NCBI RefSeq assembly: GCF_030687295.1
Contig: NZ_CP117425.1
Coordinates: 3,042,001 to 3,106,000, forward strand
Length of the DNA: 64,000 nt
Source: Pseudomonas beijingensis
GTDB lineage: Bacteria; Pseudomonadota; Gammaproteobacteria; Pseudomonadales; Pseudomonadaceae
Reading direction: 5' to 3'
Numbering within the stretch: position 1 is the first letter of the stretch; each line of letters starts with the position of its first letter. A program made the translations under genes and the position numbers. Shown piece after piece: positions 59,554 to 64,000 of this stretch. The notes beneath the pieces are model-generated. The model was not told the origin of the DNA, searched no databases, and saw only the letters and a program-made list of their open reading frames with translations.

Positions 59554-60564
59554 ATGACTGCTGGCCTGCAAGGCTCGTTGATGGTGGACGTCGCCGGTAC
59601 CTGGCTGACGGCCGAAGATCGCCACCTGTTGCGCCAGCCTGAGGTAGGCGGCCTGATCATCTTTGCCCGCAATATCGAGCATCCGCGGCAAGTGCGAGAG
59701 TTGAGCGCGTCGATTCGCGCCATCCGCCCCGACCTTCTATTGGCCGTGGACCAGGAAGGTGGCCGTGTTCAGCGGCTGCGCCAGGGGTTTGTACGGTTGC
59801 CGGCGATGCGGGCGATCGCCGACAACCCGAATGCCGAATACCTGGCCGAGCAGTGCGGCTGGATCATGGCCACTGAGGTGTTGGCGGTCGGTCTCGACTT
59901 GAGTTTTGCCCCGGTGCTGGACCTCGACTACCAGCGCAGCGCCGTCGTCGGCAGTCGTTCCTTCGAAGGCGACCCCGAGCGCGCGGCGTTGCTGGCCGGT
60001 GCCTTTATCCGCGGCATGAACGCTGCCGGGATGACTGCCACCGGCAAGCACTTCCCGGGGCATGGCTGGGCCGAAGCCGATTCCCATGTGGCGATTCCGA
60101 CCGATGAACGCAGCCTCGAACAGATTCGCGCCAACGACTTGGTGCCGTTCGCCCAACTGAGCAAGCAGCTCGCGGCGGTCATGCCGGCTCATGTCATTTA
60201 TCCCCAGGTTGACGCCAATCCAGCCGGCTTTTCCCGACGCTGGCTGCAGGACATCCTGCGCGGTGAGTTGCAATTCGATGGCGTGATCTTCAGTGATGAT
60301 CTGTCGATGGCCGGCGCCCATGTGGTGGGGGATGCCGCCAGCCGTATCGAGGCCGCTTTGACGGCGGGTTGTGACATGGGCCTGGTGTGCAACGACCGCG
60401 CCGCCGCGGAGTTGGCCTTGAGCGCCGCCCAGCGCCTGAAGGTCAAGCCTTCGGCGCGGATCGCTCGCATGCGCGGCCAGGCCTACGCGTGCACGGAATA
60501 CCGCCAGGACCCTCGCTGGCTGGCGGCGCTCGGCGCGCTGCGGGCTGCCCAACTGATTGATTAG
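59554..60564 (+). CDS. nagZ: Beta-N-acetylhexosaminidase NagZ
   Basis: Cytoplasmic glycoside hydrolase family 3 enzyme that frees GlcNAc from recycled muropeptides; its product influences AmpC induction. The 336-residue protein keeps the acid/base loop KHFPGHGWAEADSH and the nucleophile aspartate in VIFSDDLSMAGA. AAGGAAATGCT stands before the ATG at 59554. Its 3' end abuts the REPIN array. Confidence 0.96.
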   Translation: MTAGLQGSLMVDVAGTWLTAEDRHLLRQPEVGGLIIFARNIEHPRQVRELSASIRAIRPDLLLAVDQEGGRVQRLRQGFVRLPAMRAIADNPNAEYLAEQCGWIMATEVLAVGLDLSFAPVLDLDYQRSAVVGSRSFEGDPERAALLAGAFIRGMNAAGMTATGKHFPGHGWAEADSHVAIPTDERSLEQIRANDLVPFAQLSKQLAAVMPAHVIYPQVDANPAGFSRRWLQDILRGELQFDGVIFSDDLSMAGAHVVGDAASRIEAALTAGCDMGLVCNDRAAAELALSAAQRLKVKPSARIARMRGQAYACTEYRQDPRWLAALGALRAAQLID

Positions 60565-60590
60565 CGCTGAGCAGTGTGGCCGCAACTTCC

Positions 60591-61913
60591 CTGTGGGAGC
60601 CGAGCTTGCTCGCGATGACGGCCGCACAGTCAACATCTGCGCCAGCTGAACCACCGCTATCGCGAGCAAGCTCGGCTCCCACATTGGAAGTGTGGTGGAC
60701 ATCAGGTTATGTGAACGCCGCAACTCCCCTGTGGGAGCGAGCTTACTCGCGATGACGGCCGCACAGTCAACATCTGCGCCAGCTGAACCACCGCTATCGC
60801 GAGCAAGCTCGGCTCCCACATTGGAAGTGTGGTGGACATCAGGTTATGTGAGCGCCGCAACTTCCCTGTGGGAGCGAGCTTGCTCGCGATGACGGCCGCA
60901 CAGCCAACATCTGCGCCAACTGAACCACCGCTATCGCGAGCAAGCTCGCTCCCACAGTGGAAGTGTGGTGGACATCAGGTTATGTGAACGCCGCAACTCC
61001 CCTGTGGGAGCGAGCTTGCTCGCGATGACGGCGGCACAGTCAACATCTGCGCCAGCTGAACCACCGCTATCGCGAGCAAGCTCGCTCCCACAGTGGAACT
61101 GTGGTGGACATCAGGTTATGTGAACGCCGCAACTTCCCTGTGGGAGCCGAGCTTGCTCGCGATGACGGCCGCACAGTCAGCATCTGCGCCAACTGAACCA
61201 CCGCTATCGCGAGCAAGCTCGGCTCCCACAGTGGAAGTGTGGTGGACATCAGGTTATGTGAACGCCGCAACTCCCCTGTGGGAGCGAGCTTGCTCGCGAT
61301 GACGGCGGTACAGTCAATATTTGCAGCAACTGGCCCACCGCTATCGCGAGCAAGCTCGCTCCCACAGTGGAAGTGTGGTGGACATCAGGTTTTGTGAGCG
61401 CCGCAACTCCCCTGTGGGAGCCGAGCTTGCTCGCGATGACGGCGGTACAGTCAATATTTGCAGCAACTGGCCCACCGCTATCGCGAGCAAGCTCGCTCCC
61501 ACAGTGGAAGTGTGGTGGACATCAGGTTATGTGAACGCCGCAACTCCCCTGTGGGAGCCGAGCTTGCTCGCGATGACGGTTACAGTCAATATTTGCAGCA
61601 ACTGGCCCACCGCTATCGCGAGCAAGCTCGCTCCCACAGTGGAAGTGTGGTGGACATCAGGTTATGTGAACGCCGCAACTCCCCTGTGGGAGCGAGCTTG
61701 CTCGCGATGACGGCGGCACAGTCAACATCTGCGCCAGCTGAACCACCGCTATCGCGAGCAAGCTCGGCTCCCACAGTGGAAGTGTGGTGGACATCAGGTT
61801 ATGTGAACGCCGCAACTCCCCTGTGGGAGCCGAGCTTGCTCGCGATGACGGCGGTACAGTCAACATTTGCAGCAACTGAACCACCGCTATCGCGAGCAAG
61901 CTCGGCTCCCACA
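60591..61913. repeat. Tandem array of ten REP inverted pairs (REPIN array), period 135-138 bases
   Basis: Ten units start (at CTGTGGGAGC) at 60591, 60729, 60866, 61002, 61138, 61276, 61412, 61549, 61684 and 61821. Each unit is a direct REP, a centre of about 40 bases, an inverted REP ending CTCCCACA, and, except in the last unit, a connector of about 45 bases (tggaagtgtggtggacatca and on to cgccgcaactccc). Units differ by point changes; arms switch between GAGCGAGCTT and GAGCCGAGCTT. The array fills the whole space between nagZ and the helicase gene, which has no room for another gene. Confidence 0.95.
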
Positions 61914-61927
61914 AGAATTGAGGAGCG

Positions 61928-64000
61928 TCAGCGCTTTTCCAGCTTTTCCGGCAGCGGCGCGAACAGTGCCTCGATATCGTCGTTCTGCAATTTCCAATCT
62001 CCGGCCACGCGTCCGTCCAGCACGCCGGCTGCGAGGTCGGACTTTTCCTTCTGCAGCAGCTGGATCTTCTCTTCCACCGTGCCTCGGGCAATCAGCTTGT
62101 AGACGAACACCGGTTTTTCCTGGCCGATGCGATAGGCGCGGTCGGTGGCCTGGTTTTCGGTGGCCGGGTTCCACCACGGGTCGTAGTGAATCACCGTGTC
62201 GGCCTCGGTGAGGTTCAGGCCTACACCCCCGGCCTTCAGGCTGATCAGAAAGATCTGACGCTTGCCACTCTGGAATTCCTTGACGGGCGTGCGTCGGTCC
62301 CGGGTCTGGCCGGTCAGGATCGCGTACTCGACGCCGCGCTTCTTCAGCTCATCTTCAATCAGCGCCAACATGGAGGTGAACTGGGAAAACAGCAGCACCC
62401 GACGGCCTTCTTCAAACAGCTCGTCGAGCATTTCCATCAGGCTGTCGAGCTTGCCCGACGTGCTGCCTCGGGCGGGCAAGGCGGCGTCGTTGAGCAGACG
62501 TAGATCGCAGCACACCTGGCGCAGCTTGAGCAGCGCCTCGAGAATGATGATCTGGCTGCGGGCCACGCCTTTGCGGGTGATCTCGTCGCGGACCTTCTTG
62601 TCCATCGCCAGGCGCATGGTTTCGTAGACGTCCCGCTGGGCATCGCTGAGCTCGACCCAATGGATGATTTCGGTCTTGGGTGGCAACTCCGTCGCCACTT
62701 GCTCCTTGGTCCGGCGCAGCAGGAAAGGTTTTATCCGACCGTTGAGGTGCTGCAGTCGTACATCGCTGCCACGTTTTTCGATCGGTACGCGGTAATCGCG
62801 ATTGAAGCTCTTGACGTCCCCGAGCCAGCCCGGCAACAGGAAGTGAAACAACGACCACAGCTCGCCCAGGTGATTTTCCAGGGGCGTGCCGGACAGGCAC
62901 AGCCGCTGGCGGGCGTTCAGTTCCCGGGCGGCCTGGGCGGCTTTGCTGGTGGGATTCTTGATGTACTGGGCTTCGTCGAGGATCAGCACGTGCAATGGCT
63001 GTGCGGCCAGGCGCTCGACATCCTTGGGTAGCAGGGCATAGGTGGTGAGGACCAGGTCGTATTCGCCCAGCCGTTCGAAATGCTTTTTGCGCCCGGCGCC
63101 ATACAGGGCCAGTACCTTGAGTTGCGGCGTGAAGTGAGCTGCCTCGTCGAGCCAGTTGGGAATCAGGCTGGTGGGCATCACCACCATGCACGGGCGATCG
63201 AGGCGCCCGGCGTTTTTCTCACTGAGGATGTGCGCCAGGGTCTGTAGGGTTTTGCCCAGGCCCATGTCATCCGCGAGGATGCCGCCGACTTCCAGCTGCC
63301 TGAGCGATTGCATCCAGCTCAAGCCTTCGAGTTGATAAGGCCGCAGCGTCGCGTTCAGGCCTTCCGGCGCGGTGGTGGTGTAATCCTTGATGTCCCGCAG
63401 GCGCTGGGCCAGGCCGCGAATGTGTTCGCCGCCTTCCCAGGTCAGCGGCATGTCCTGCAGCGGGTTCAGGCGCAAGGCGTCCGCGCTGTTGAGGCGCAGT
63501 TTGGTGGTGCCGGGTTCTTGCAGGTAGAACTCGCCCAGGGTCGCCAGCACCGGTTTCAGCCGGCCGTAGGGCAGGGCCACTTGCTGCGGGCCGAACTCCG
63601 AGTTCGGGCGGTTGGGCAGGTTGACCAGAATCAGTTCATCGTCCCGGCGCCTGGCCAGGCGTTCCGGGTTGAACAATTCGATGTGCGAGCGCATCAGGTT
63701 CAACAGGATCGGCAGCAGGCTCAGACGCTCGCCGTTGACGATGATCCCCAGCTCCAGGTCGAACCAGTCCCGTTCCGGCGTTTCCTCCACCGTGGCGTAC
63801 CACTCGTCCACCGCCGTCAGGTCGAAGCCGAAATCCTCGTCGATCTGCAATTCCCAGCCCTGGGTGCGCAGTTTCGGCAGGTCGTTGAGGGTGAACGTCA
63901 GCCAGGCACTGTCGTTGACCATTTCGTACAGTTCACCGGCGCTTTCCGGCAGGGCCTTGCTTTGTCGGGTCGCGACCTTGAAGCCGAGGATTCGTAGTTG
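61928..64000 (-). CDS. SNF2-family DEAD/DEAH-box helicase, C-terminal part (5' end outside window)
   Basis: ATP-driven DNA or nucleoprotein remodeller of the SNF2/RapA group. The reading frame stays open to the window edge, so the N-terminus is missing. At least 690 residues are present. Helicase motif I is in DDMGLGKTLQT, motif II is LDEAQYIKNP (DEAQ), motif III LSGTPLENHLGELWS, and the C-terminal lobe has FSQFTSM, LKAGGVGLNLTEADTVIH, and RAYRIGQEKPVFVYKLIARGT. The upstream part visible here is the lineage-specific region that precedes the SNF2 core. Its stop lies 14 bases from the REPIN array. Confidence 0.93.
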   Translation of the reverse strand, partial: QLRILGFKVATRQSKALPESAGELYEMVNDSAWLTFTLNDLPKLRTQGWELQIDEDFGFDLTAVDEWYATVEETPERDWFDLELGIIVNGERLSLLPILLNLMRSHIELFNPERLARRRDDELILVNLPNRPNSEFGPQQVALPYGRLKPVLATLGEFYLQEPGTTKLRLNSADALRLNPLQDMPLTWEGGEHIRGLAQRLRDIKDYTTTAPEGLNATLRPYQLEGLSWMQSLRQLEVGGILADDMGLGKTLQTLAHILSEKNAGRLDRPCMVVMPTSLIPNWLDEAAHFTPQLKVLALYGAGRKKHFERLGEYDLVLTTYALLPKDVERLAAQPLHVLILDEAQYIKNPTSKAAQAARELNARQRLCLSGTPLENHLGELWSLFHFLLPGWLGDVKSFNRDYRVPIEKRGSDVRLQHLNGRIKPFLLRRTKEQVATELPPKTEIIHWVELSDAQRDVYETMRLAMDKKVRDEITRKGVARSQIIILEALLKLRQVCCDLRLLNDAALPARGSTSGKLDSLMEMLDELFEEGRRVLLFSQFTSMLALIEDELKKRGVEYAILTGQTRDRRTPVKEFQSGKRQIFLISLKAGGVGLNLTEADTVIHYDPWWNPATENQATDRAYRIGQEKPVFVYKLIARGTVEEKIQLLQKEKSDLAAGVLDGRVAGDWKLQNDDIEALFAPLPEKLEKR

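Follow-up and report, generated by a model that had tools for sequence, protein, structure and literature searches.

The array between nagZ and the SNF2-type gene

The window, by which we mean the whole stretch of 64,000 nucleotides analysed here, comes from a Pseudomonas beijingensis genome assembled as one contig of 6,449,812 bases. Two converging genes in it, both reading into the gap between them, are separated by one long tandem array (60579..61913) that TRF reported with a period of 137, 9.8 copies and 94% matches. Upstream of the array and reading towards it is an ORF of 336 aa (59554..60564, + strand) with a Pfam Glyco_hydro_3 match of 272 bits, presumably nagZ, the name used for it in an earlier note on this DNA. 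The gene converging on it (61928..63922, - strand) is a SNF2-type helicase gene with Pfam matches to SNF2-rel_dom (256 bits) and Helicase_C; its ORF stays open up to the window edge, and its 5' end may fall outside the window.

The array comprises ten REPINs and nine connectors, and all ten units carry a direct REP, a centre and an inverted REP in that order. The REPINs, which are inward-facing (HH) REP pairs, occupy 60590..60683, 60728..60820, 60865..60956, 61001..61092, 61137..61230, 61275..61366, 61411..61503, 61548..61638, 61683..61775 and 61820..61913 (units 1 to 10, no strand assigned), with starts spaced 135-138 bases apart. The connectors, each of which is the spacer of an outward-facing (TT) REP pair, lie at 60684..60727, 60821..60864, 60957..61000, 61093..61136, 61231..61274, 61367..61410, 61504..61547, 61639..61682 and 61776..61819 (connectors 1 to 9), and none follows unit 10. 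TRF and the unit table thus bore out the earlier note in its description of ten tandem units between these two genes, evenly spaced and sharing a conserved connector. As cut at the REP starts, the REPIN parts measure 91-94 bases and the connectors 44 bases in 9 of 9 cases (48 when measured between two REP octamers), and the first eight connectors have a mean identity of 0.96. In a test that did not require alternation, the 20 REPs alternated strictly in direction, leaving two types of inter-REP segment. That REP pairs are otherwise single in the window, as also claimed, holds insofar as TRF and a REP unit search found no second REPIN tandem array there, only pairs and singles, but not every such pair is inward-facing: the ones near 19.1 kb and 30.2 kb are outward pairs.

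Several other identities were tried and rejected. A coding repeat was dismissed because the frames that stay open through the array do so mechanically and a good gene lies on either side of it. No Rfam family could be assigned to the array, the sole gathering-score match within the window being the SRP RNA. A CRISPR array would combine short repeats with unrelated spacers of even length, whereas the connectors here are nearly identical. The array is a BIME-like tandem REPIN array; such arrays are already known, and this one, though large, is not singular.

The main REP of the array is GTGGGAGCGAGCTTGCTCGCGAT, which equals class PF8 and shows the GTGG head, the palindrome that follows it and the high copy number of a REP of that class. 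The exact 22-mer GTGGGAGCNAGCTTGCTCGCGA occurs 676 times forward and 668 times in reverse in the genome, and its reversed control does not occur (0). Exact inward pairs number 814 genome-wide (spacer 60-85) and exact outward pairs 366 (spacer 15-45), the latter search having stopped at 45, with longer spacers missing from the count. Neighbouring pairs were sampled in 20 evenly placed 20-kb stretches and the first 60.4 kb of the window, where we counted 68 inward pairs, 64 of them at distances of 69-74, and 35 outward pairs, at distances of 45-49 (20), 28-30 (7) and 34-39 (5). Lone inward pairs made up 40 of the sampled clusters and lone outward pairs 19. The exact PF8 sequence is led by 105 of 210 REP octamers in the sampled stretches and the exact PF9 sequence by 6. 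The array's units have the inverted REPs around a spacer and the capacity to form a hairpin that characterize REPINs (unit 5 being the one folded alone).

Similar arrays in this and other genomes

A five-unit pattern matched at 21 places in the genome, the window's array included; with 21 arrays reaching five units or more, this kind of array is not rare there. Only arrays of that size were fetched for measurement (20 plus the window's own), using a chain finder that demands alternation and whose informative output is chain length and spacing. At 21/21 loci the chain consists of between 7 and 20 REPs, and the outward spacers measure 44-49 bases; the inward pairs are mostly 86-90 long (extremes 76 and 103), and the mean periods range from 131.6 to 137.1. 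The largest caught are the window's array and one at about 5.19 Mb (L143), with 20 REPs each, and at three loci (L138, L144 and L146) the chain holds fewer REPs than the five-unit pattern search implies. Mean identity within an array runs from 0.84 to 0.98 for REPINs and from 0.89 to 1.00 for connectors.

Three direct REPs with a period of 119-149 were found 94 times forward and 101 times in reverse, against 1 and 2 times with a period of 150-180. The array period is thus sharp upward, the control consisting of these longer periods only. Three-unit matches of similar period occur in 40 of 99 Pseudomonas genomes (this one included), with 195 hits in this genome, 221 in G052, 191 in G066, 146 in G010 and 125 in G047, part of the last being arrays of another kind, and in G019 some twelve units follow one another near 3.967 Mb. 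Separately, we observed in G047 direct REP runs with members about 72 bases apart, a different array type, at 1718292-1718944, 2109519-2109959 and 2790757-2791842.

Repeats can be misassembled, and the window's array is known from the assembly alone. Nevertheless, an assembly artefact is scarcely credible as an explanation, given that the genome is a single contig, that the units differ by up to 14 sites, that like arrays stand at 20 other loci and that 39 other genomes contain three-unit matches.

The connector is an outward-pair spacer

The connector was compared with the spacers of outward pairs elsewhere in the genome. From 100 TT pairs listed (of the 366) we kept 87 and dropped 13 from arrays of which another unit was already in the set; a few adjacent TT pairs whose spacers differ were retained among the 87. 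In 59 of these 87 distinct pairs the spacer is 42-45 bp long and shares an imperfectly palindromic consensus, GGGGATcTGtGGTGaaCACAAAtTTTGTGttCACCaCAgATCCCC (n = 59), and 58 of the 87 spacers measure 43-45, where 8.4 would be expected under even lengths. Of the remaining 29 spacers, 9 are exactly 27 long. Taken together, the lengths cluster at 16-18 (7), 27 (9), 32-35 (5) and 43-45 (58), which is roughly a ladder, although the short classes are small and the length search ended at 45.

The consensus was built from both strands and is therefore palindromic by construction; the independent test is the self-complementarity of single spacers, which averaged 10.6 pairs, compared with 7.7 after shuffling (sd 0.19, 200 shuffles) and 8.1 in random genome segments. 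The loci used for training lie below 1.66 Mb, and the window's array is outside that set, while 3 of the 59 training spacers come from arrays that were later scored (L127, L128 and L129). The commonest form of the connector at nagZ scores 17 on the consensus, and none of 20000 random segments and none of 1000 shuffles did as well. Twenty of the 21 arrays fit the consensus at shuffle rates of 3/1000 or better, though the connectors of L131 and L146 were equalled by 111 and 61 of 20000 random segments. The exception is L127, whose connector does not fit (159/1000 shuffles were as good). This locus (G000, the window's genome, 54167-55053) has seven units in the order A B A A B A A, with the off-consensus connector between them. 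The window's array, with a spacer of the family's length (48 bp between octamers) and its consensus, thus contains TT dimers.

To locate the spacer sequence relative to REPs in general, half-spacers were read outward from the REP foot and scored as matches at 13 or more of 22 positions of the half consensus. Lone outward pairs matched at 16 of their 38 inner edges, and clustered ones at 18 of 30 inner edges and 4 of 16 outer cluster ends, whereas lone REPINs matched at 7 of 80 flanks and random segments in 0.3% of cases. From these edge counts it follows that the connector family accompanies outward pairs, including short ones, and is not what ordinarily surrounds a REPIN. In the sampled stretches its long form is mainly a feature of clusters: a distance of 45-49 was seen for 16 of 16 outward pairs within larger clusters but for only 4 of the 19 lone outward pairs, which are mostly shorter (7 at 28-30 and 5 at 34-39).

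These results bear on how the unit came to be what it is. The earlier note took the amplified unit to be a REPIN plus its flank, and the connector is indeed part of the repeated unit; it is not merely captured flank, however, since it belongs to a genome-wide family of outward-pair spacers. A chance duplication of a single REPIN together with adjoining unique DNA would give connectors nearly identical within the array, as seen here, and would be in line with the tandem REPIN clusters of strain SBW25, which include flanking sequence (Bertels and Rainey 2011, PMC3116915), and with the connector of L127, which lacks the consensus. Random flanks should vary in length, though, and the outward spacers keep to their narrow range at 21 of 21 loci; the connectors moreover follow the same consensus as outward pairs elsewhere, and most flanks of lone REPINs do not carry it. 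We regard chance capture as very improbable. The connector is a member of a recurring outward-pair spacer family, and inward (REPIN) and outward pairs alternate in the array as in BIME-2.

A further reading is more speculative, and we think it rather doubtful: the outward pair with its palindromic spacer may be a second mobile or copied unit, a mirror-image REPIN, in which case arrays would grow as an alternating chain of hairpins and the spacers would be found only at the rungs of the length ladder (about 16-18, 27, 32-35 and 43-45), perhaps because one protein complex holds both REPs. Whichever unit is copied, the "flank" of tandem REPIN clusters need not be random and is, in this Pseudomonas, a palindromic spacer of near-fixed length. 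The edges of this spacer also mark lone outward pairs, and the spacer also stands beside the transposase gene described below, so that the finding is relevant to the formation of BIMEs and to the question of the unit that a RAYT recognizes and processes. Tandem REPIN or BIME arrays were already known, and the recurring TT spacer is the fresh detail. A literature search covering mainly open-access texts found nothing on outward-pair spacers beyond the papers cited, and we do not claim that the spacer family is unpublished.

Probable growth of the array in place

The same gap was examined in relatives, of which a nagZ search kept the best 80 of many more; 78 were counted, two (L017 and L057) having no SNF2 match. 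For 20 of these 78, identity of the SNF2-type gene is no more than 68-71% and its distance is greater, so that it is probably not the same neighbour. Exactly one lone outward pair stands in the gap of 31 of the 78 relatives, all of them among the 58 with the closer SNF2 gene, its distance to the end of the SNF2 match being 31-55 bases (42-46 for 19 of the 31). No REP is present in the gap in 18 of the 78; among the 58 relatives with an SNF2 gene of 87% identity or more, the number is 6. Three genomes of the corrugata group form a series, with one outward spacer in P. mediterranea (L020), two in strain ICMP22404 (L004) and three in P. corrugata (L002), all of one sequence lineage and with the inward pairs lying between them. 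P. thivervalensis (L001), the NagZ of which is 97% identical, has three REPINs and two connectors of the window's lineage. The copy number therefore differs between related species, with three REPINs in the draft of P. thivervalensis and ten in the window, where the earlier note had suggested variation between strains; the relatives are draft assemblies, which can collapse repeats, and their array counts could be low. A search of 38 relatives with nagZ-plus-unit DNA returned mostly scattered REPs; it also gave seven loci at the nagZ end, two with one outward pair and five with no exact REP octamer (in short stretches), and an eighth locus (L108) that is a REP match elsewhere.

Arrays thus seem to grow in place, and the corrugata group offers, in the gap that precedes its SNF2 gene, a site at which their growth could be followed species by species. 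In six of 13 printed gaps (L002, L004, L005, L010, L015 and L020) we also observed a phosphorylase-type gene following nagZ, which we take to be mtiP and of which the L002 copy matches PNP_UDP_1. It was not found in the window's genome or in that of P. thivervalensis; the same query matched in its source genome, P. corrugata, and in P. brassicacearum subsp. neoaurantiaca.

In the window's array, the HH pair (REPIN, 87-90 bp) and the TT pair with its 48-bp spacer take turns, all with PF8-class REPs. The explanation that we consider probable as a whole is that of a BIME-like array of alternating HH and TT pairs, grown in place by recombination or slippage and with a likely passive effect. An outward pair between the converging genes may have gained a neighbouring REP, so that a direct REP would have recurred after about 136 bp; the unit could then have been copied in place by recombination between the two direct REPs or by slippage during replication, and exchange within REPs would shuffle the arms. 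This explanation draws on the alternating chains with spacers of 44-49 at 21 of 21 loci, the sharp upward limit of the period, the fit of the connectors to the consensus, the self-complementarity of the TT spacers, the half-spacer matches at the edges of outward pairs, the gaps of the relatives and the mosaic arms described below. Against it stand the misfit of L127 and the weaker fits of L131 and L146, the concentration of long spacers in clusters, the null results of the decay and lag tests and of the comparison with the sister species' units given below, and copy numbers taken from drafts.

The centres of the units are of type A in units 1-5 and 9 and of type B in units 6-8, unit 8 having a small deletion, while unit 10 is a hybrid of the two. 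A single burst of identical copies was rejected, as there are two centre types. The earlier note had described the variants as changing in blocks, and this holds for the centres, where type B forms a run, but the GAGCGAG and GAGCCGAG arm variants do not follow the centres. All four combinations of states occur in 14 of 45 pairs of informative columns, and each of these 14 involves an arm column. The shuffled arms fit exchange inside REPs, recurrent single-base change being the alternative.

Duplication by unequal exchange, as suggested in the same note, is accordingly backed in one respect, namely that the mosaic arms suggest exchange between units, whereas block structure and decay with distance lend it no significant support. 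Similarity did not decay significantly with distance along the window's array (r 0.15; 724 of 5000 permutations were as high). Of 59 lag tests on 16 arrays, one reached P 0.05 (L137, lag 3, 0.045), which is the chance level; arrays with fewer than five inward pairs in the chain were left out. The units of the sister species are not closer to any one unit of the window's array, terminal units included. Given these three results, we hold stepwise unequal exchange to be no more than plausible. A trimer-like order of units seen in L127, L135 and L137 was likewise set aside as no evidence by itself, the lag tests being at chance.

A transposase as a possible engine of amplification

Recombination or slippage between direct REPs is the engine that we prefer, and its chief rival is amplification driven by a RAYT, which would cut at REPs and amplify a module of two REPs, for example by rolling circle. 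RAYT-type amplification of this sort has been proposed for BIMEs (Nunvar 2010, PMC2817692). The genome contains one Y1_Tnp match (888683-888991), in an open frame, and this RAYT-like frame is flanked on both sides by TT pairs with spacers of 44 and 40 bp. A CT, reported as the cut site of other TnpA-REP proteins (PMC8266576), immediately precedes GTGG at 40 of the 68 edges of outward pairs, as this rival would have it, but isolated REPINs show it too, at 60 of their 96 outer ends, and it is therefore not specific to arrays. The likeness of the units of one array, in REPINs and connectors alike, suits a transposase, and the missing distance decay does not speak against one; the two centre types and the hybrid unit, on the other hand, are unlike one burst of identical copies. 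The REPs also differ, in that those beside the RAYT are of PF9 form and those of the array of PF8 form. The sole RAYT-like gene found (G000 888433-889159, L106) has flanking outward REPs of the PF9 form GTGGGAGCGGGCTTGCTCGCGAA, while exact PF8 is far commoner. PF8, to which the array's main REP is identical, and PF9 are both placed under one RAYT orthogroup, IV (Nunvar 2013, PMC3686654). On balance we consider it rather unlikely that a RAYT made the array.

Folding and gene context

Folded as RNA, unit 5 alone, an inward pair, reached -66.2 kcal/mol, and connector 5 with its two REPs, an outward pair, reached -68.0 kcal/mol. A unit can thus be predicted to form a very stable hairpin, in agreement with the series of hairpins that the earlier note had envisaged in the nagZ 3' mRNA. 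Its suggestion of IHF binding found no support, as the array has no site with one mismatch or fewer to the IHF consensus on either strand; by the same search (0-1 mismatch, both strands), no IHF site lies between the REPs as it would in a BIME-1. The sequence flanking the array likewise contains no T run just outside either array end.

Gene directions were taken from a simple codon-usage ORF caller, with 187 gaps as background, of which 43 are converging, 103 in line and 41 diverging. The gaps that hold the 21 arrays are converging in 10 cases, in line in 11 and diverging in none (converging: P 0.011, binomial, and 0.018, Fisher; diverging: P 0.006). The most biased class is that of the lone outward pairs, 12 of 19 of which lie between converging genes (Fisher P 0.0005 against 43/187), while the lone inward pairs showed no significant converging bias (11 of 36, P 0.22). 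These counts fit elements that are tolerated at transcript ends and perhaps useful there.

A gyrase site has been reported for E. coli BIME-2. The array might accordingly be kept by selection, as such a gyrase site or as a two-way terminator or mRNA stabilizer between converging genes, which we hold to be an outside but real possibility. Both pair types fold very stably, lone TT pairs and arrays favour converging genes with no array between diverging ones, and an outward pair occupies this very gap in the 31 relatives noted above. Avoidance of promoters alone could yield the same bias, however, and the copy number is erratic, with the gap devoid of REPs in 18 relatives, 6 of them with the closer SNF2 gene; nor is there an IHF-like site or a T run outside the array ends. 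We doubt that ten as a number of units is itself under selection. Its present effect is likely passive: each of the two converging transcripts would end in strong hairpins, which may hinder read-through and 3' decay.

Comparison with described REP systems

Among the closest described counterparts are those of P. fluorescens SBW25, which has 16 tandem REPIN clusters of nearly identical REPINs with flanking sequence, as in the window's array (PMC3116915). The largest of those clusters, however, has four REPINs and one REP over 700 bp, a separate REP array of the GI-GIII type there has 12 REPs, and the REPs belong to groups GI-GIII, whereas the window's array is PF8. The next-neighbour distances reported for SBW25 peak at 71, 110 and 184, none of them named as a class of outward pairs (PMC3116915). 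Like BIME-2, in which regularly spaced REPs alternate and modules stand head to tail (Nunvar 2010, PMC2817692), the window's array has alternating REPs, head-to-tail modules and two inter-REP segments. In Stenotrophomonas BIMEs the inter-REP segments are without homology and vary substantially in length (PMC2817692); here, in contrast, the two spacers hardly vary in length, and a genome-wide consensus exists for the outward one.

The GTAG-1 families also contain both HH and TT dimers (Di Nocera 2013, PMC3733652). TT spacers with complementary ends were described in P. putida and P. entomophila, and large clusters were explained as dimers in tandem with flanking DNA (PMC3733652). TT spacers are there variable as a rule of thumb, while here the 42-45 bp class makes up 59 of 87 and shares a consensus, and the TT spacer here is itself the "flank" of the tandem unit, unlike in the GTAG-1 description (PMC3733652). 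The REPa elements of the P. fluorescens group resemble those of this genome in that most REPs form opposed pairs 60-70 bp apart, with 500-1500 copies and usually one cognate RAYT per genome (Loper 2012, PMC3390384); outward pairs and long tandem arrays are not mentioned in the part of that account used here.

A separate 89-bp repeat

A separate 89-bp repeat has at least 40 copies in the window's genome and forms five inverted pairs less than 1.5 kb apart (336551-337565, covering L083 and L128; 1595569-1596887; 2309232-2309849; 5464024-5464635; and 5962524-5963685). At L083, a match to the Rfam family TwoAYGGAY (RF01731) overlaps one end of the repeat. At least three of the five inverted pairs enclose a REP array or an outward pair.
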